From Vitis vinifera (lineage: Eukaryota; Streptophyta; Magnoliopsida; Vitales; Vitaceae): a stretch of 64,000 nt of DNA. Under the pieces are notes generated by a model that saw only the letters and a program-made list of their open reading frames with translations, did not search any database and was not told the origin of the DNA. Within the stretch, counting starts at the first letter, position 1. Every line of letters starts with the position of its first letter. Location of the stretch: positions 20,773,001-20,837,000 of the forward strand of contig NC_081820.1 in NCBI RefSeq assembly GCF_030704535.1. The letters are read 5' to 3'. Positions 78 to 46,240 of the stretch are shown here, one piece after another. Both the position numbers and the translations under genes were made by a program.

Positions 78-1314
78 ATATCCGAGGTTGTCAATAGTAT
101 GAAAGACTTGATTGACTTCTGCAGGGAGAACAAAGTTGGGCCAATTGGTAAGGTTCCTTTACTGTTGAGGGTGATCTAAAATTTGCCGTAGTCGTGTCTT
201 CTTGGTTCAGTTGTTAGATTTGCAACCAACAAAAAGGACTTTCATGGCAACAATTATCGAGTTATTGTTCTTCCTGTGTAGAGTGTAAATTGTTTAGTTT
301 TCCCTTTATTTTTTCCTTTGAGAATGAAGAAGAGGTCATACATTCTTGTTTACTTGAACCTGATACAACCACTCATCTGCAGATGGGTTGAAAAGTTATC
401 CTCGACATGCTAGTGCAGTGAAGCTTGAGATGCAAAAGATGCAGGAGATGGAACAGCTTGCAAATGTTCAGGGTCTGCCGACGGATCGCAATACCCTTAA
501 TAAGCTAATAGCATTGCATCCTGGTCTAAACAGCCATATGAGCAATAATCCTCACATGGTTAATCGTGGAGCTTTAAGTGGCTCGGCACAAGCTGCTTTA
601 GCACTGACCAACTACCAGAATCTGCTGATGAGACAAAACTCCATGAATTCAAACCCTAGCTCGCTTCAGCAAGAGGGGCCATCTTCATTTAATAGCTCTA
701 ACCAGAGTCCATCTTCAACATTTCAGGGCCCTGCTACTTTGATTTCGGGATCCATGCACAACTTACCTGGTAGTGGTTTTTCCAGTCCCCATCTACCTCC
801 TCAACAGCAGCAGCAGCAGCAGCAGCAACAGCAACAACAACAACAGCGCTCATTGAACCCTAGTAGCTTGCTCCAACAGAATCCTGGTCTATCCTCTCAA
901 AGCAGCCAGGCTCTACAACAGCAGATGATCCAGCAAATGTTGCAGGAGATGACAAATAATTGCGGGCCAGGGATGCAGCAGCAGTCCCTTTCTGGCCAGA
1001 ACGTAAATGGGAGCATGACGAGGAGTGGGATGGGGTTTGGGAACAACAGTGCAGCAGCCACTGTAGCCAGCCCCAACTTATCAGGAAGCATTGGGGGGCC
1101 ACCACTGAGCAAGAGTAACAGTTTCAAAGGGCCATTGAATAGTGACTCTTCGGCTGGGGGTGCTAATAGTGGATTCAACCAAAAAGCATCAGATTTGGCA
1201 CATAATCTGCATTTGTCGGATGAAATGGTTCAGGATATAGCCCGTGAATTTCCGGATAATGGGTTCTTTAACAGTGACCTTGAGGATAATATGAGCTATG
1301 GCTGGAAAGCATGA
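78..1314 (+). CDS. SLK: SEUSS-like transcriptional co-regulator, C-terminal part (3' end of gene)
   Basis: Two exons are visible: 78-147 (after an AG at 76-77, ending at a GT donor at 148) and 383-1314 (after an AG at 381-382). The junction splits a codon and gives an uninterrupted reading through ISEVVNSMKDLIDFC...GPIDGLKSYPRH. Together they encode the last 333 residues, ending YGWKA. SEUSS/SLK proteins are plant nuclear adaptors related to LIM-domain-binding proteins; they bridge LEUNIG-type corepressors to DNA-binding factors in flower, ovule and embryo development. The LDB-like dimerisation domain lies upstream of the window. What is seen here is the Ser/Asn/Gln-rich tail with a run of 15 Gln (802-846) and the acidic end FFNSDLEDNMSYGWKA typical of SLK members. 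The convergent F-box gene lies about 1.1 kb downstream. Assignment to SLK rather than SEUSS itself rests on the tail and is fairly secure. Confidence 0.9.
802..846 (+). repeat. CAG/CAA polyglutamine tract in SLK
   Basis: Fifteen consecutive Gln codons (mostly CAG, then mixed CAA) lie in the last exon of the SEUSS-like gene. Mixed codon use makes slippage less likely than in a pure CAG run. Length polymorphism between cultivars is plausible. Confidence 0.95.
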
Positions 1315-2200
1315 CTAACCTAGTTTGAAGTTTGAACTGGCAAATCCACCAGCATATATCTTTCTTTGTACAGGACATTTGAAATAGTTCCATTTTCTTT
1401 TCTTTGAAAGTATGGAGTTTGCTGTGACTTCACTTATGTGTACTTTTTTTACTAGGATATTTAGCAACTCTTTTTGAGGGTTTTCTGTTTTCAAGTCTTG
1501 CAAATGTAATCTATCTATTGGACAAAGTCTTTAAGAGTTTCCTATTAAACCTGATTATCATGTGTTCCATTCCCATGCCTTTTTGGACTCTCTTCTTTTC
1601 TTATCTTGTCTGATTTGTTTTTTCTCTTCTGGCATTTATTTTTCTTCCTGTGGGTTCGGGACATTCTTTTCATTCTACGTTCTCGCAGCTATTTTCCACT
1701 TATGCAAGAGGAAAATTGAAAAACATGCGATTTCACCATCACTTGGGGGATGTGGGAGGGGCCGGGGGCTGCATTAGCAGCATCCTCCTGCCCACCAATT
1801 AAGTGTTCCTTGCAGTCCACCCAAGGCAGAAGGATCACTAACGATGTTGTCATGCTGACTGTTGTGTATAGAAAAACAAAGGTAATATAACAAAGGCACT
1901 CCGAAAGGGAAGGCATCATACAACTGCAGAGAGGGCTTCCTCAAATTCTCTATCTGATGAGGGGTGGGAGAAAAGGCATGTTCAGAATGCAGCCGAATAT
2001 GATTAGGTCCATTCATCCTGAGACGCAATTTGGCAAGTTCTTTAAGCCATTCAAAAGGCAAAACCAAACATAGACAAGGTTGGACCAAAGTCAAACTGCT
2101 TTTCAACACTCTTGCCATACATGTTATGATCAGTTACTGGCCGGGGTTTTAAAACACTGATTTACGGTAAACAAATTGATTACAGATGAACAGTCTCAGT
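1315..2200. other. Intergenic / 3' UTR region between convergent SLK and F-box genes
   Basis: The first 250 bases are probably SLK 3' UTR. From about 1740 to 2120 the composition is less AT-rich than typical intergenic DNA, and a 114-codon open frame exists on the minus strand (1774-2118), but it matches no family I recognise. It may belong to a long 3' UTR of the F-box gene or to a degraded gene piece. Confidence 0.4.
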
Positions 2201-2204
2201 TCCA

Positions 2205-2526
2205 GATGAGACTTGGTCTATCCAAAAAGCAGGGAAATGACAAAGGAATATTAAAGTGGATCAACATTGCACAGACTAAAGAGTAGGCAAGTAGTCATCT
2301 GAATCGTCTTCAGCTGCAGCACCAAGAAACCTTTCCATTATCATTTGCTCAATACTCCTAGCACCACTTTGGTCTATATCCAAAAAGTAGCGAAATGACA
2401 AAGGACTATTAAAGTCCATCAACACTGTACAGACTAAAAAGTAGGCAAGTAGTCGTCGTCTGAATCGTCTTCAGCTGCAGCACCAAGAAACCTTTCAATT
2501 ATTTGCTCAATACTCCTAGCATCACT
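2205..2526 (-). repeat. Tandem duplication of the F-box gene 3' tail
   Basis: About 160 bp is present twice in tandem: roughly 2205-2368 and 2380-2526. The right copy is the real end of the coding sequence plus early 3' UTR. The left copy repeats the sequence for the Cys-terminal tail (GAAAEDDSDDYLP then stop) and lies downstream of the functional stop codon, so it is now 3' UTR. The copies differ by scattered substitutions and small indels, for example one Asp codon fewer in the left copy. Confidence 0.9.
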
Positions 2527-5063
2527 CTGCATCCATGACGCCGTGTCGGCACCCAACCCTTCTGGTGCTACTACAGGAGACTGGCACTGGTATCCTCTAT
2601 GAAAGTATTTCAAGGTGAACTTCCCTGAGGGATCATGTATTTCAACATCAAATGCCTCTGAGAGTGGTCGACCAACAACTTGAACATGGGAGACACTGCA
2701 ACATCAAAGCCGAGTCTAAGAAACTCACAATCTGCTAAGTAATTTACACAACTATAAAGCAAAGCAGGTCTCTTGAATCAGAAGACAGCAAAATCCCTGT
2801 CTTGTTTTATCACATTTTACATAATTTTTTTTTATCTCAGAAAATATAAAAAGAAAATAACCCCTCCTTTTGAGTTGTTCCTGCACCAATTTTGCAGCAC
2901 AAAAGTGACAGGAAATCATATAAAACTGATCTATTATTAGTAACTTCACTTGCCATCCTAAAAACTAAGAAACTAGTTGCGTCCCATCTCAGCACCATAG
3001 AGTGTCTCCTTATTAAAAAGTAAATTCAGCACAGCCTGATCGCATCCTCAATGCAATATATAATACTACAATCCAGAGCATCGCTTGAATCCATTCAATT
3101 TTAAAATCCTTTTAGCATAGATGAAGCTTAGAGGGAGGTCTTTCATTTAGTAGGTACATGGGAATGTGCAAATAGGAGAGTCAAAACTGACGGTTATAGA
3201 AAAGAAGTGCAGGGGCACTTTGCCAGGAACATACCATATATAGTATAAACCATCCATCTCTTGTTTCTGAACTCTACCCAACAGCTCGATTTGCAGAATT
3301 CCTCCAATGCAAAGAGCAGGTTCTGGTAGCTTGAACTTTTGCAAGCGGTTTTCCTGTTTCATCAATAAGTTGATTAAGCTTTAGGCTATTTAAATTCATA
3401 AGTCACGCAAGACAGAATTAATAGAGTAATTAAAATAAAATACCCGAGAACATTTTTAGAGAACTGTTAAAAATACTTCTTTCCTTGCATACCTCAGCAA
3501 ATTTCTAGGTCAACAAGCTATTTTGTTTGAAAAATTACCCCACCAAAACCAAACCGACTCTTTTCTCTCTCTCTCTCCCCTTTTCTTTTTTATTTTTTGG
3601 TAAGTGCCATCAAAGAAACAATCATAAAGGAGAATTAAGATTGATGGTTAAGTATGCTTGAACTTATAATGTATAATTAGGAACATCTTTGCAATAAAAA
3701 GGAAGAACTATGTGTTAATGAGCTAGTCTTGAATCACATGTGACAAATCATGAAAAATGAATAATTTTGTTACAAGAATGGACACTCATCCATCCAAAGT
3801 CCCATTATGTGTTTCAGTGGGTTAGGATGGCGTCCCAGATAAAAAATTGGATACTTGTTAAGTTCCTACACACTGTACAAAAAAAATAAAACAAAATAAA
3901 ATAAAACAATAAAAACCTCAATCTGGGAATATAAAACTTTACCTGAGCCATTGGGAACTCTGGTGAAGTATATGTCCATATGTACTGATCCTCAAGAGAA
4001 TCAAAACCAGCAGCAGGATCATTTGCTGCATCACCACCTCTCTCCATTGGATACATCTGATGGCCCATTCGAAACCGCACAGCCTTAGCTGAATATATAG
4101 GGTGACCAAACTGAAAATATGCTGATATGCAAACATAAAAACTGTCAGTAGGGGAAAAACAACACATAAAACAAGTTATTAGGCAAATCAGGATTGACCT
4201 TGAAATGGTTGCACATGGATCTCAGTAACAACACACAAATTGGCAATCAACTTATAAACCAAACTCTCGGGAATCGAAGGATCCATTTCTCCTTCACTTG
4301 ACCAGTATGAAGCGCTGTGTCTAATCCTATCCCTTGGATCCAAAGTATTATCAATGGTTTCTTCAGGGTAGTTATCAGTGCTGGATGCGCTAATGGCCCG
4401 TGCTATGCAAGCAGTTCTCATGGAAGAGGTAAGTCCTTGAGCCAAATAGGCATAAACTCTATGATTCTTCTCCAAAATCTTCCGCTCCATATTGTTAGAC
4501 TGGACTTCTTCAGTTTCTATCATGTTGTTTATTTCAATAGCACCAGCCAAACTGGACATTTCAGGTAACATTCTTAAACAAAGCTGCTTAGAAAGGCCAT
4601 TTTCAATCACTGCAGGGAACTTAAAGCCACATCAGAATCACTCAAAAGAAGACATAACATACAGCCATTACATTTTTCATTCAGTTTGATTATGAAATCA
4701 AGTTTGTAGTAAAAATATAAAGCTCTACATTCTTTGCCTGATATTATACCTGATATTATATGTAATCAAGGTGGAGATGAAAATATCAGGTGTCTGTTCT
4801 ACAAAAATTACCACCATCCAATTGCGCCAACACATTTACAAACATAACAATCATGATTCCAAATAATATGTACATAAACACCTCAAAAGATTATAATAAA
4901 GCCGGTATTTCAACTCCACTGACTTACCAAATTGACGCCACAACCTTGAAACCGTGCTAACCCGAACAAGATCAGATGGGTCCTCCAAACACATCAGGAT
5001 TTTGATTGACATGTCACGTCCAAGCCAACGTATGAAATCATTGCCATCCCCCATTACAGGCAT
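2434..5063 (-). CDS. F-box protein, At4g00755-like
   Basis: Five coding exons on the minus strand: 5063-4928, 4609-4199, 4121-3943, 3353-3235 and 2695-2434. All have GT-AG borders and compatible phases, giving 368 aa. The ATG at 5063 reads MPVMGDGNDFIRWLG and is the first in frame. Residues about 8-45 form the F-box (WLGRDMSIKILMCLEDPSDLVRVSTVSRLWRQF), the SKP1-binding part of SCF ubiquitin ligases. The remainder (KQLCLRMLPE..., RIRHSASYWSSEGEMDPSIPESLVYKL, FGHPIYSAKAVRFRMGH, LPEPALCIGGILQIELLGRVQKQEMDGLYYI, HVQVVGRPL) is the conserved body of the Arabidopsis At4g00755 family, whose target is unknown to me. The length matches the roughly 377 aa of that family as I recall it. A leader intron separates the ATG from the promoter. 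The acidic tail DDSDDDYLPTF ends at a TAG at 2434-2436. Confidence 0.93.
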
Positions 5064-31552: not shown

Positions 31553-32906
31553 CAGGGATTGAAAAATCGAAAAAATATCGCCGATATTTCGAAGAAATAT
31601 CGGATATCGGACGGCGCCGAAACGATAATCGTCACCGATTATCGATCGACGGAAAAATCGACAAAAAATCGGCAAATCGGCGAAATACCGATTTATCGGA
31701 AAATTTCCCGATATTTTCCTACCAGTCCAGCCCGCGCACAGGATACAAAATCTGGCTCAAAAATGTGGATTTAGGGTTCGTGAAATTTAAATCCAATGGC
31801 ACAACAACAAAGAGACCCTTAAAACAGATCCAGAAAACACAGGGAGCAAAAGAAAAGCAAATTTTTTGGTTTTCTTTGGGGGTTTTGAATGGATTTTCTC
31901 GGAAATCAAACGAGAATGAATTTTCCCGGAAATCAAATGGGGGATGGATTTTCTTGGGAATCAAACGGGGGTTGCAAAAAAAATAATATCAACGTGATTA
32001 GATTAGTACCTGCGAGGATTGAGAGTGGCAGAGGAAGATAGGTCTTTTTAGGAAGAGGAACTCTCTTGGCTGGAGGGCAGCTTCAGCGGTGGAGGGCAGC
32101 TTCAGAAAAGGGGAAAGGGGAATTCTCTCGGCTGGAGGGCAACTTCAGAAGTGGGTGGCCCTTTTAATTTTTAGATTTAGTAGAGGTAAAAAAAAAAAAA
32201 AAAACCAATCATGAGAGCAATTTTCCTCTACCCATATAAATAATTATAAATTATTGAATTTTATTTTGATTATTAAATAAATTAATATTAATAAAAAAAA
32301 GTTGTTACTATATGTTTTTAATAAAATTTTAAAAATTAAATCTCAAATAAAATATTTATATAAATTAATTTAATTTTCATTTAAAATATAATAAAACATG
32401 TTTTAATAAAAATATTTTAAAATTTTTTAAATAAACATTATCTTCAGCAAATTGGGTCATCTTCATCTAACAATATAATGAAATCACATCGATCTCTTCC
32501 TTAGTATAAGGACTATTGTAATATAATATGTATTATATTTTTGTATAAATTGTTTTTATTCAATAAAATCAAATATTTTTTAATTCAATTCTAACTCTAT
32601 ATACTTTCAAAATTCATATATATTATTTTTAAAATTCAAATATCAAATCTACCAATATATCTTTGTTTAAAATATCTTCTTAATTATATATATGTCAATT
32701 ACACTTACAAGATAACTTTAAAATGTGTATTTTTACTTATTTTATCATTTTTAAAAGTTTTTTCAAGCATTTCTATTATTTTTAAATAATTTTCACTTTA
32801 TCGATATTTGTGAAAAAAATATCCACCGATATTTCTCCGATATTTCCGATATATCCGTAAAATCGAAGTACCGATATATCCGTAAAAACCGATATTTCAA
32901 TCCTTG
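31553..32906. mobile_element. Non-autonomous hAT-type transposon (1354 bp)
   Basis: Terminal inverted repeats CAGGGATTGAAAAATCG and (inverted right end) CAAGGATTGAAATATCGG; perfect 8 bp target duplication GCTAAAAT at 31545-31552 and 32907-32914. Both fit the hAT superfamily. Subterminal regions carry many CGATAT words (ATATCGG, CCGATATTT, CCGATATATCCG), likely transposase-binding sites. The short open frames inside (31719-31986) are not recognisable and no transposase is encoded. A short repeat GGAGGGCAGCTTCAG occurs twice at about 32073-32105, with a variant near 32135. The paralogous segment at 12.3 kb provides the empty site. Confidence 0.93.
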
Positions 32907-33787
32907 GCTAAAATAGAAATGATATTGTATTTTTTCTATATTTATTTTTCTATTTACTCATGTATATATAGTAAAGAAAGTGAGGAAATAAAAATTTTAA
33001 ATTAAGTTTATAAATTTATTTTATTTTAATAATTTTATCTCCCTTTTCAATAAAAAAAATTAAAAATTTAAGGCAATTTTGGTTGCACTTTTGTTTTTAA
33101 AATTAAAATTTTGAACATAATTCTAAAACTCATGTTTGATGGTTTGTTTTTCATTACTAAAAGAAGGTAAAAATTAATTTAATATATTCCAAAACCTATC
33201 AAAGTTTAATCTATTTTGCCAAACACAATCAAAGCTTTTCTAATAATTTGATTAAAAAAAAGTTTTTGAATTTATTTTCTATGATTTTCTTTGTTCGACG
33301 AAGAAGTTTTAAACAAGTTTTTGAGCTAATTTTCTTTCATTTGTTTATTTACAAATATAAATATATGAATAAAAATATTATGTTTATTTTATAGACTTTT
33401 TTTTGTACCGAATACCTTGTTCATAATCACATTATTTCTACTTATAAATTTTATTACTTAGAACTTTTTATGTTACTCACATTTTCATACTTAGATTACA
33501 ATTTTTATATATTAATACTTTGCTTATATTTTTATTTTTGATTATATTCTTCATATCCTAATAACATTTTTTGAATCTTGGTCATACTTTTTCATACATA
33601 GGTTATACATACATAGGTTATACAAATTTGTTCTCTTAGACCTCGTGAAAATTTGGCAATTTTTGTGACACCAAACTATAAAACATTGGTAGCATGTCAA
33701 AAGAATTTTACACTATCTTTGTGGCACAATAACTCATGGTCTTACTTTCAGTGCTTCATCCTCTCTCCATCCTCTCTTCATTTGTAT

Positions 33788-34209
33788 TTTTCTTTTGGAG
33801 ATAATTTGGTTTGTTGGTTTTCATCCAAATAATGAATTGTATCTCATAGTAATATGGAGTTAGAAAATCAAGCATTGGCTAATGTTATAGTTGAACTTTT
33901 ATAGTTTCAATATTTTTGCCGTTGCATCTTATTTTGCCTTCTGCATTATTGGTCTAGTGTGATAATATTAGTGTTGATTAATTTGCTTCTAATCCCGAGT
34001 TTCATGCTAGAATGAAACACATTGAAATTGATTTTCATTTTATTTGGGATATGGTTCTTCGTTAGGATTTAATGATGCAATGTGTTCCTTCTTCAAATTA
34101 ATTTGTAGATATCTTGACAAATCATCTTCCTTCTTCTTGGTTTATAGAACTTGAGGGCAAATATTTGTTATTAATTCAACAAGATTCTAATTAATTAGAG
34201 ATTGGTTAA
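33788..34209 (+). pseudogene. Ty1/copia RNase H relic (copy 2)
   Basis: Counterpart of 13254-13668, with the same frame breaks: ENQALANVIVELL, NPEFHARMKHIEIDFHFIWDMVLR, then SSWFIELEGKYLLL. It is part of the duplicated segment and encodes nothing intact. Confidence 0.85.
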
Positions 34210-35399
34210 TTTATTAACTCTTTTGTAAATAGAAGTTTCCCGAACCTTATCCCATCCTTTCAAGCCTTCCCAAAATATCTATATATTTCCTTTCTAGTTT
34301 CTTAACTTTCACTATTATCATACATTTTTTCTATCCAAACAAAAATGACAAGAGATATTAAAGGCATTTAATAAAATTTAATGATTAATGTTTGTGAGTT
34401 AAGACGAGTTAAAAAAAAATCATGTTTTTCTTTTTTCTTAAAATTTATTATTTAATTTGTTACTTTAAGTATTAAAGATATTTATTAAAATTAATTTAAT
34501 ATTTTTTTTACATTATTAAATTTATATATTTAGCAAGTAATAAATTTGTTTCCCCATACGAAAAAAACAGATGTGCAATAAATGAAAAAGATACTTAAAA
34601 TTTGAAAAAAAAAACTATTTACTTTGATCTATCAGTTTAAATTATTGTAACACATGTATTTTTAATGTAACTAATAATTTAATTAAAACATTAAATTAAA
34701 TTATCAAATATTTTCCAATTTTAATGTCGAAATCAATGCTAAGCTAATTTTAATGTTTTTCATTCTTTTGGTTTCTTCCTCTTGAAAATATATACTATAC
34801 TACTCAAGTCAATACATACCTAACATACCCCCCTTGGTTTAATTTTTATTTTTATTTTCATTCTTTTGATTTTATTTCTCATTTTAATTGAGTGTCTTTC
34901 AAGGATTTATTCTGTCCACTACCCATCTCCATCATCCTATTCTGTCACTCAAGCAGTCCAATCCAAATCCATCAGTGATTCCTTCACATACCTCAATAGA
35001 GACAGTGTCTTGTCTTCATTAGTGGACTAAGGGAACCTGCTCAATATTTATATTTGATATATCTCCATTAGCCACCAAAATATCTGCTGCCAAAGGTTCT
35101 TATCTCCACATGCGTGAAAATTCAAATAATCAACTAATTAACTCATCCTAAATTTGATATGAATACGACTCCTTTAATAATAACTTGAGTTAATATGATT
35201 AATCTTTATATTTTTGACTCGATTAACCTATTTCTTATATAATATAAGTTAATCTAAAAAATTGGTTATATAAGTGGATACAAATCTAATCCAAACATGA
35301 TTAAGTTCAATCCTAACTCACAAAAAACATATTCAATTCGAGTTATATTAATGTATTATATCAAATTTTACGATCTTTATGCTTTGATGTAATGATTTT

Positions 35400-36025
35400 A
35401 AAAAAACACTTCAATTTTTTTGAAATATTCCAAAAATGCCCTCCAGTGATTCCCGATATCTTTCTTTCTTTTCATTCATACCTCTCTCCTTTATTATTAT
35501 TTTTAATTAGAAAAATCTTTTTTTTTTTAGAAATTAATAGGTGGTCATATATTGTTTTACTTTTAAAATTATCTTTTATTCAATATTATTTTATTTTATT
35601 TTATTGATTTAGATGTTTTTTGTAAATATTTTTTAAAATTTTAGTATAGTGATAAAAAAATTATTATTTTTAATTAGAAAAGTCTTTTTTTTTTTTATAG
35701 AAATTAATAGGTAATCATATATTGTTTTAATTTTAAAATTATCTTTTATTCAATGTTATTTTTTTTAGTGATTTAGATGTTTTTTCATTAATAAATTTTT
35801 TTTTTATTTATCATACCATTTTTTTTAATTAAAATTGTATGTCCTTTTTGGTAATTTATTAATATTAAAAGTGTTTTTATATTTATACAATATATTATAA
35901 AAAACACTTTAGAATCATTTTTTCTGATTATCATAAAAGTGTTTTTCACAAAAACACTATAACAGAAAACACTTCAAATAAAAACACTTTCACTAGAATC
36001 ACTACCAAACGGGCTCTAAGTATCA
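35400..36025. mobile_element. AT-rich MITE-like sequence with an internal tandem duplication
   Basis: The right end CACTACCAAACGGGCTC, preceded by repeated AAACACTT words, resembles MITE termini of the CGTTTGGTA type. Inside, about 150 bp is tandemly duplicated (about 35497-35640 and 35660-35800: TTTTTAATTAGAAAA-TCTTT, AGAAATTAATAGGT, TCATATATTGTTTTA). The left terminus is unclear and lies close to the duplication breakpoint at 35399. Confidence 0.5.
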
Positions 36026-42395: not shown

Positions 42396-42406
42396 TAGGC
42401 CATGCT

Positions 42407-43048
42407 TGTAACGACCCGCTCCCAACCGTCTGTGTAGATATTGTTTGCTTTGGACCCAAAGGGGCCTTCACAGCTTTAAAACGCGTCTACTTGGTTAAGA
42501 GGAACCTCTACATATATAGCGTCAGGAACCTTCTCTCCTATCTGATGTGGGACATCACAAACACCCCCTTCCCCCATGTAGACACAACGTCCTCGTTGTA
42601 TCCCATGAGATTGCTAGGTCAAACAGACAAACACCCAACCCCCACACCGGGGTTGGGGATTGACTCTGATACCATTTGTATAACGACCCATTCCCAACTG
42701 TGTAGTTATTGTTCGCTTTGGACCCAAAGGGGCCCTCATGGTTTTAAAACGCGTCTACTTGGTTAAGAAGAGCCTCTACATATATAGCGTCAGAAACTTT
42801 CTCCCCTATCTAATGTGGGACATCACAAACACCCCCATGCAGACACAACGAGGATGTTGTGTCCCATGGGATTGCGAGGCCAAACAAACACCCTTACAGG
42901 ACCAAACAAACCCCACACCGAGGTCGAGGATCGGCTCTGATATCATTTGTATAATGACCCGCCTGTAGACGCATTTTAAAGCTGTGAGGGCCCCTTTGGG
43001 TCCAACGCGGACAATATCTACACGGATGGTTGGGAGCGGGTCGTTACA
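42407..43048 (-). mobile_element. TRIM array: LTR-internal-LTR-internal plus inverted partial LTR
   Basis: Read on the plus strand, LTR A is 42407-42559 (TGTAACGACCCGCTCCC to GGGACATCACA) and LTR B 42677-42827 (about 90% like A). Each is followed by about 120 bp of internal DNA ending GGCTCTGATACCA or a variant, the inverse of the tRNA-Met primer site, so the element points to the minus strand. After the second internal block a 15 bp piece of a third LTR abuts an inverted 86 bp LTR end (42963-43048). The whole is flanked by a perfect 5 bp duplication ATGCT at 42402-42406 and 43049-43053. No protein is encoded. TATATAG near the middle of each LTR is the likely TATA box. Confidence 0.85.
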
Positions 43049-43054
43049 ATGCTA

Positions 43055-43840: not shown

Positions 43841-46240
43841 TGGTTGAGAAATTTAATGGGAGAAACAATTTCATTTGATGACATATTTAGATGTGTGCCT
43901 TGTTGGTCCGATAGGGTTGTCCAAAGAATTGAAAGGTAGGGAAACTCTACCAATGATAATGTTTGATGAAGACAAAAATGAACTTATGGAGAAATCAAGG
44001 AGTGCTATTTTGTTGTGCTCAAGGTTCCTTGCAAGGTCATGGAAGAGGATACAACTAAATTAAAAGTTATGATTGAAATTGAAAATCGGATACAACTAAA
44101 TTAAAAGTTATGATTGAAATTGAAAATCACTAGATAAAGAAGTCCATTAAAAATCGTTGTATTTGGAAAAAGTGATGTTCACTCTCCAAGTGAAAGAAGA
44201 CATATTTATTAAAGTCCACCTTGATAAATTCAATAAACCTATAATGAAAACTAAAATTGATGTCTGAATGTCAAAATTAATAATAAAGTCATATTTTAAT
44301 ATATTCCTTAACAAATTATTATAAGCACTTTATGGATAACAAGATGTATGATATGGATACTTTCTCTATGAAGGATGTTGGGCCAATTTAATTTGAATTC
44401 AAAGGAGTTGAAGAAAAAGGCATTTAAGAGTATAAAAAATGCTTTCTCTATGAAGGATGATGGGGTAGCCTTGAATTCAAAGGAGTTAAAGAAAATGATC
44501 TCTAAGAGTATAAAACAAGGCTTTGTTGATGAATTGGTGGTTAAAGGAAGAATGGAAAAGAAAAACCATGATAGGAGAGGTTTGCCCAAATCAAAATTGA
44601 TATTAAAGGCAAATGACAAGTCTTTCAATTGCAAAAAGGAAAGACACTATATGAGTAATTATTTATAATGTAAAAAAGAGGAAAAAAGGAAATTAAGGTT
44701 CAACTTTAAGTAATGTAGTAGTTGCAAAGGAAAAAGTAGCTAGGTATTACAAATATCTTTTCGGTTCGTATTAGTAACTTAGGTTATATATGGATTCTTG
44801 AGGCAAAGTCTTTCATCATATGTCTTCTAATAGGAATTTGTTTAGTACCTACTAACCTATACATGCTAAGAAAGTTCTTATGGGGAATAATGTCACTTGT
44901 AATGTTTTAAGGTAGACACAATTCGAATTAAGATACATTATGACAATGTAAAGTCATTAATTGATGTAAGACATGTTTTAGCATTGAAAAACAATTTGAT
45001 TTCTTTAGATATATTTGACTCTACTAGGTGTTTAAAGGATGAAAATTCACCGAGATAGACAAAGCATGAAGATTTAGCTATCGCAAAAAAAATTATTTGA
45101 AGAAAATTTTACGTCGCTTCAACATGCATGATTATAAGCTAGTTTTTACTCTACTTCTTATGAATTACAAATTATTCTCGAGTATGAGTCCTAATAATGA
45201 AGCGAAGAGGATGAAACTATCTTGAACATCGTATGCATCAGCAGTGGGAAACTTAATGTTTGCAATGATTTGTATAAGACTAGACATTGCACAAGTAGTA
45301 GGAGCAGTAACTCGATTCATGAAAAATCTGGAGAGAGAACATTGGAATATAGTTAAGAGAATTCTTAGATACATCAAAGGGGTCTCAAATGTTGCATTAT
45401 GTTTTGGAGGATCAGAATTCATCGTCAAAGGCTATGTTGATTTAGACTTTGCAGGTAATCTTAATAAGAGGAAATGTACTATGGGTTATGTGTTTACCCT
45501 TATAGGAGGAGTTGTGAGTTGAGTTTCAAAATTTCAAACTATTGTGGTTTTATCTATGATAGAAGTAGAGTACATGGCAACTACATAGGCTTGTAAAGAT
45601 GTTATCTAGATTAAAAGGTTATTGGAGGAGCTTGGGCACAAACAATAGAAGATTTTCCTATTTTGTAATAGTCAAAGTGCCTTGCACATTGCAAGGAATC
45701 CAACCTTTCATTCTAGGACTAAGCACATAGGAGTTCAATATCACTTTTATGCGAGAAGTGCTGGAAGAAAGAATCGTAAATATGCAAAAGATCAATAAAA
45801 GACAACCTAGCATATGCCTTAACAAAACCAATTAATATTGATAAATTCAGTTGGTGTAGATCTTTTTATAGCTTGGCAATAACCTAAGCGACATGTGATG
45901 GGGCAAGACATAAAAAATGACTTCAAGTGGGAGAATGTTAAGGTTGAAGTCATCCTACATTGGAAAAAGACAAAAAGAGGAGCTTCCTTGTCCTATAAAA
46001 TGAGGTTTCTACCCTTTATACTATTTATCCCAAAAATACTTTCATTCTTTTGTGAGCTTTTATGTTTTCTCCTCTTAATTGAGAGATGTTATAATTTTGT
46101 TTTCATATAGTGAATATTTTTCGATCTTACCCTATGGAGGTTTTCCTATTGATTAAAAGGGTTTTACCACGTAAGTACTTCTAACCATTACTTTATTATT
46201 TTATTTTCAAATTATTGTTGTGGGTATTAAGATGATGACA
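43840..46240 (+). pseudogene. Tnt1/Tork-like copia fossil with a large internal deletion
   Basis: Pieces in order: gag start EKFNGRNNF..., about 43846-44060; zinc-knuckle remnant FNCKKERHYMSNY near 44640; a protease-like piece (WI.D..KVFHHMSSNRNLFSTY, about 44795-44870, the DSG position lost); ISLDIF-like spacer residues near 45000; then directly the late RT/RNase H region SAVGNLMFAMICIRLDIAQVVGAVTRFMKN at about 45238-45330, IKRLLEELGHKQ and [12 protein letters not shown] to about 45860. Integrase and most of RT are missing. A polypurine tract (CAAGTGGGAGA) and LTR start TGTTAAGG at 45936 follow, with CCTATAAAATG as TATA box near 45990; the LTR ends about 46240. Many stops. Confidence 0.8.

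Follow-up and report, generated by a model that had tools for sequence, protein, structure and literature searches.

The closest described counterpart of the grapevine element analyzed here is the maize Zma-SMART TA-TRIM, presented as "two inverted TRIMs" with the target-site duplication CTTCA and checked by PCR and sequencing (Gao et al. 2016, PMC4717578). Both are TRIM arrays with several LTRs, and in both an inverted pair lies inside one target-site duplication; polarity, joint, and mechanism, however, are not given in the text of PMC4717578, whereas the grapevine arrangement is recurrent, carries U5 outermost, and has joints that can be read. An inverted TRIM with a duplication is already in print for maize, and the U5/U5 recurrence and the joints go beyond the text there. 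Complex LTR elements inside one target-site duplication have been ascribed to abnormal template switching during reverse transcription (Sabot and Schulman 2007, PMC1950507), but in those complexes two parent sequences are fused, and the word "inverted" is absent from the text available for that paper. Long Cassandra arrays, for which an origin by template switching or recombination is given (Kalendar et al. 2020, PMC7215508), are also tandem TRIM arrays but, in the text available, direct ones, with "inverted" there referring to primers. DIRS-1, like the window copy, has inverted LTRs, but is described with a tyrosine recombinase and circular intermediates (PMC5633606, in the text available). 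Across the literature covered, which includes few subscription journals, inverted TRIMs within an array appear only in the text of Gao et al. 2016, and U5/U5 polarity and joints of the present kind are undescribed.

Layout of the window element

The window, by which we mean the whole 64-kb stretch of DNA that was analyzed, harbors a 642-bp element that reads on the minus strand (42407-43048, ATGCT flanks excluded; Table 1). The initial annotation had described it as a TRIM array with an inverted terminal LTR inside one perfect target-site duplication, and this description holds: both outer ends, TGTAACG and CGTTACA, are the LTR U5 end and lie directly against an exact 5-bp pair of ATGCT, a motif found 61 times among the 63,996 positions of the window. 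The two direct LTRs (89.3% identical) and the two internal blocks with primer sites are likewise as it had them, and the inverted LTR end is present, although it measures 84 bp and not the 86 bp first given. This inverted half equals LTR-A at 77 of 84 sites (91.7%; BLAST E 5e-29), with transitions making up six of the seven differences, and is 85.0% identical to LTR-B. The minus-strand reading, the 15-nt third LTR, and the CT at the joint are additions to that description. By eye, the arms meet there with no overlap and with two extra bases.

Table 1. Features of the window element, from left to right along the plus strand; the possible TATA box lies inside LTR-A
Feature	Position	Strand	Remark
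Left target-site duplication, ATGCT	42402-42406		Adjoins TGTAACG (from 42407)
LTR-A, complete, 153 bp	42407-42559	-	Left outer end formed by U5 end TGTAACG
TATATAT at LTR position 42, possible TATA box (putative function)	42512-42518	-	Coordinates converted from LTR-A
Internal block 1, 117 bp	42560-42676	-	Primer site CTCTGATACCA (reverse complement), 42664-42674
LTR-B, 151 bp	42677-42827	-	Direct repeat of LTR-A
Internal block 2, 120 bp	42828-42947	-	Primer site CTCTGATATCA (reverse complement), 42935-42945
Third direct LTR, 15-nt U5 end only, TGTATAA type as in LTR-B	42948-42962	-	Read directly
Joint bases CT, belonging to neither side	42963-42964		Read directly
Inverted LTR half, LTR positions 70-153, probably R-U5	42965-43048	+	Right outer end formed by U5 end CGTTACA
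Right target-site duplication, ATGCT	43049-43053		Adjoins CGTTACA (to 43048)

In size, with LTRs of 151-153 bp, internal blocks of 117-120 bp, and 642 bp in all, the element falls within the TRIM limit of under 1,000 bp (Gao et al. 2016, PMC4717578). It also has the target-site duplication of 4-6 bp that is characteristic of TRIMs (ATGCT, 5 of 5 bases) and the primer-binding site beside the LTR, which begins both internal blocks, but the terminal direct repeats of the class are found in other family members and not in the window copy, whose outer repeats are inverted. The two complete LTRs, two internal blocks, 15-nt third LTR, and inverted half LTR within ATGCT place it among the TA-TRIMs. 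Cassandra LTRs carry 5S RNA sequence (per the text of PMC4717578), and 18 relatives gave no 5S match at the Rfam gathering score. The family shows ordinary LTR-internal-LTR copies as well, and in the 28 measured the identity of the LTR pair averages 94.4% and reaches 100% in six, which indicates that the family moved recently.

Both window primer sites, we assume, fit tRNA-iMet. From the TATATAT at LTR position 42, the start of the RNA is expected at about position 70, which is where the inverted arm begins, so that the size of this arm would match that of a strong-stop cDNA. No further family copies were found within the 64-kb window at E 1e-3. Elsewhere in the window, a 41-bp unit is present in two perfect head-to-tail copies at 44047-44128, ≈1 kb to the right of the element, and the 32001-36000 interval has a G+C content of 23%, the minimum among sixteen 4-kb stretches.

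Inverted arrays across the grapevine assembly

The window structure is not singular within its family. We searched one 495.6-Mb assembly of 21 contigs with the window element itself as query, a choice that biases the sample toward its own polarity, and scored 40 of 1,230 first-look candidates; all 40 were mapped, the window locus among them. By unit order, these 40 loci comprise 11 in which plus units follow minus units from left to right, so that each outer edge is formed by an LTR U5 end (U5/U5 arrays), two with the opposite order (L014 and L018), and 27 direct ones. A less biased sample was drawn with a 24-nt string composed of the LTR end, AA, and the primer site, which has 301 matches with one mismatch or less. 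The 100 matches listed of these 301, all exact and located on contigs C1-C15, were clustered by hand into 87 loci, and 67 of the 87 were read, 15 of them from the first sample and 52 new. Among these 67 loci, in a sample that over-represents arrays with many primer sites, are eight U5/U5 arrays (L009, L012, L019, L052, L055, L071, L075, and L079), one mixed-strand array (L090), and no opposite-order arrays.

Together with one locus found via its joint (L100/L101), which belongs to the remaining 20 of the 87 loci, the U5/U5 arrays in 16 of the 92 mapped loci bring the known total to 17. L025, with a right arm of 43 bp and no duplication, is retained in this number; L058, for the script a ninth U5/U5 array of the less biased sample, was dropped, as this call rested on a 44-bp stretch, 77% alike and 773 bp away. 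Neighboring matches show the same polarity by eye: among the 100 listed of the 301 primer-string matches, pairs within 1 kb are minus-then-plus in three cases and plus-then-minus in none, and among the 100 listed of 405 matches to a U3-end string, pairs within 1.3 kb have U5/U5 polarity in five cases and the opposite in none, several of these pairs being loci already in the U5/U5 count. The initial annotation had proposed a search of the genome for inverted copies with duplications of their own, and such copies exist: 12 of the 17 U5/U5 arrays have an exact 5-bp duplication at TG/CA ends. The other five comprise L010 and L055, which match at 4 of 5 bases, and L013, L015, and L025, with no duplication at their termini.

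In the less biased sample, seven of the eight U5/U5 arrays are flanked by an exact duplication and L055 by 4 of 5 bases, with the 52 new loci contributing four more U5/U5 arrays that carry an exact duplication. These 52 also include 45 one-strand loci, 34 of which retain both termini, with an exact duplication in 21 of the 34 and a 4-of-5 match in four. L100/L101 has GGACC at both ends, exact by eye. When right flanks were shuffled among family loci, a 5-of-5 match arose at a rate of 0.0026. Compared by polarity, the arrays with exact duplications number 11 U5/U5 versus 0 opposite (two-sided P 0.001, subject to the query bias of the first sample; L100, having been found by a U3:U3 query, is excluded), and 7 versus 0 in the less biased sample. 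Neither of the two opposite-order loci, L014 and L018, has two readable LTR termini, and the left outer end of L014 runs into another LTR.

Several loci contain further structures. One arm of the inverted array L017 holds nine plus-strand LTRs that are 96.6-100% alike (723-3207). A longer, different LTR ending in GGGGCGTGAC(A/T) precedes the same TRIM primer site at five places (L014:1-478, L022:1-515, L030:1-619, L038 to the right of 1559, and L017:636-722); these loci are possibly chimeras with another LTR retrotransposon, a partner that may move the TRIM.

Joints and arms of the inverted arrays

Exact U3:U3 joints, with 14 bp or less between the LTR ends, are found at two loci (L052 and L100/L101) and exact U5:U5 joints at none; the exact pattern misses the opposite-order L014, where two slightly shortened U5 ends face each other across 3 bp in a nearly complete U5:U5 joint. 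L100/L101 consists, by eye, of a minus array, one base, and a plus array. At the joint of L079, two U3 ends meet as CATCACA-AA directly followed by TT-TGTAATG, with AA and TT retained, and the joint of L052 is the same, AA and TT included, plus one extra C. Unintegrated cDNA carries two bases beyond each LTR end, which integrase removes, and these two joints seem to record the U3 ends of finished cDNA with the two extra bases in place. Other joints differ when inspected by eye: the arms of L010 meet in the palindrome ACGCGT, L013 has a short mirror copy at its center, and bases are shared between the arms of L009 (TGGTT), L016 (AAA), and L015 (CAT). Across the 14 loci whose joints could be read, a set without L019, L025, and L100, the U3 terminus accounts for 10 of 28 arm ends versus 0.7 expected for a uniform spread, a category picked post hoc and with L013 judged by eye. 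Clustering of arm ends near the predicted RNA start, 5 of 14 versus 2.0 expected (P 0.037), is weak, and we give it no weight.

The joint of L055 contains an antisense U6 snRNA (RF00026, E 1.4e-22), with its 3' UUUUU abutting the U3 end and the AA that follows it. The first part of the U6 match fits poorly, so the copy looks 5'-cut. The stretch between the arms (L055:1211-1359) comprises this antisense U6 and a second segment ending in TTTTTT that by eye resembles the 3' portion of a Pol III transcript. The simplest reading of this joint is that reverse transcriptase moved onto a small RNA. ARAGORN found no tRNA in L055, and no U6 was found in 18 other family loci; a tRNA detected in L071 was discounted, as it sits in the flank, ≈1.2 kb from the insertion.

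Comparison of the arms bears on whether one cDNA or two contributed to an array. In L079, the LTR pairs are 99.3% identical within the left arm and 98.7% within the right, versus 94.6-95.3% across the arms, and the internal blocks measure 113 and 128 bp; this pattern of high identity within and lower identity between arms means that the array was assembled from two distinct cDNAs before it integrated. L052 leans in the same direction but less clearly, with LTR identities of 99.3 and 95.3% within arms and 93.3-94.6% between them and internal blocks of 115 and 128 bp. The variants that distinguish L052 from L079 are repeated in the two LTRs of an arm (by eye), and the two loci therefore look like separate events. 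Within-arm and between-arm identities are about equal in L055 and L075, the full LTRs of L011 all share 98.7-100% identity, and the best-matching LTR pairs of L009 and L016 are found across the joint or inside one arm. The window arms, 91.7% alike, are too old to tell one source from two.

Origin of the U5/U5 arrays

We consider it likely that the window element is a non-autonomous TRIM insertion whose two constituent cDNAs had been linked back to back by the time they integrated. The recurring U5/U5 polarity, the exact duplications, and the different joints together indicate that an already rearranged cDNA integrated, a possibility raised in the initial annotation that is now well supported by 11 more loci with the same polarity, exact duplications, and differing joints. 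Minus-strand cDNA of LTR retrotransposons starts at the tRNA primer, and its first base is the U5 end. Each of the two minus-strand cDNAs would begin at its tRNA primer and hence at a U5 end, and joining of their far ends would then yield a linear molecule that terminates in U5 on either side. The joints of L079 and L052 have the look of end joining between finished double-stranded cDNAs; a second possible route, in which reverse transcriptase jumps or the cDNAs prime each other, has L055 with its U6 snRNA and L010 with its palindromic center as candidates. The two U5 ends would be the only integrase-ready ends left, and the integrase of a partner element could insert the product with the usual 5-bp duplication. 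For the window copy, a strong-stop cDNA (R-U5) probably supplied the short arm and was joined to a longer cDNA of a tandem TRIM RNA. A back-to-back cDNA dimer is the best reading in that it explains the polarity together with the duplication, the variety of joints, and arms that stem from two sources. With somewhat less assurance, we favor the broader view that U5/U5 dimers, present in 8 of the 67 primer-site loci, which were read blind, are a regular, integration-competent by-product of this family, that the integrase serving the family accepts two U5 ends, and that different cDNAs become linked into dimers either through end joining or when reverse transcriptase jumps, also onto U6 RNA.

A fold-back of one molecule, in which a minus-strand cDNA looped back, used its own 5' part as template as far as the U5 end, and integrated as a hairpin-derived product, is unlikely to be the explanation, but it has several observations on its side. 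The inverted arm of the window copy is closer to LTR-A, its would-be template, than to LTR-B; the arms of L011 are nearly identical; and the central mirror copy of L013 and the palindrome of L010 are of the kind expected. The two-source arms of L079, with L052 leaning likewise, and the frequently unequal unit order and length of the two arms argue against it. The self-primed cDNA suggested in the initial annotation is possible for the window copy, L009, L011, and L016, but fails as a general rule since the L079 arms have different source copies.

That a direct array inserted first and its right end was later flipped by inversion, gene conversion, or replication error is improbable. Local changes do happen in arrays, as in L090, a mixed-strand array of three parts (plus, minus, plus; 840-2081) with an exact GAAAA duplication and thus more than one joint in a single insertion. 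However, the right outer end of the window element abuts the duplication with its exact U5 terminus, a precision that no random inversion would produce, and the same configuration with exact duplications characterizes 12 U5/U5 arrays. In the first sample, both LTR termini are present in 10 of the 11 inverted U5/U5 loci, with exact duplications in 7 of these 10 (ATGCT in the window, CCACC, ATACC, CTTCC, AGTCA, TGGTG, and TTTTA) and 4 of 5 bases in L010, versus both termini in 18 of the 27 direct loci and exact duplications in 10 of those 18, with one further 4-of-5 match; inverted and direct arrays thus retain exact duplications at a similar frequency. A later internal rearrangement that kept both ends, the other origin offered in the initial annotation, is disfavored by this comparison.

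Two adjacent insertions in opposite directions, mimicking one, are very improbable even in an abundant family with 301 sites of one 24-nt string (one mismatch or less), since each would carry its own duplication and the window has one exact pair around the whole, with a shuffled rate as low as that given above. An element with inverted termini by design, either a DNA transposon with terminal inverted repeats, which the inverted termini and short duplication resemble, or a DIRS-like element, given the inverted LTRs described for DIRS-1 (PMC5633606), can be practically dismissed: ordinary LTR-internal-LTR copies with a primer site (28 measured) form a large part of the sample, direct-LTR copies of the family have 5-bp duplications, and the inverted copies use the same parts. 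The window element is itself too short to encode a tyrosine recombinase.

That similar mirror-image copies recur in this genome points to a joining of two DNA copies, back to back, ahead of insertion. The fate of retrotransposon cDNA before integration is seldom readable in genomes, and the joints described here seem to be such a record, one that seems to hold finished cDNA ends still bearing their two extra bases, a U6 RNA captured at a joint, and a one-sided preference in which ends are used. If the dimer reading is true, the absence, among the loci read, of U3/U3 products flanked by exact duplications would imply that it is the minus-strand end set by the tRNA that survives. U5/U5 copies could be misfiled as inverted-repeat DNA transposons. 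Finally, the use of two U5 ends by a plant integrase and the origin of tandem and inverted TRIM arrays become testable from sequence.
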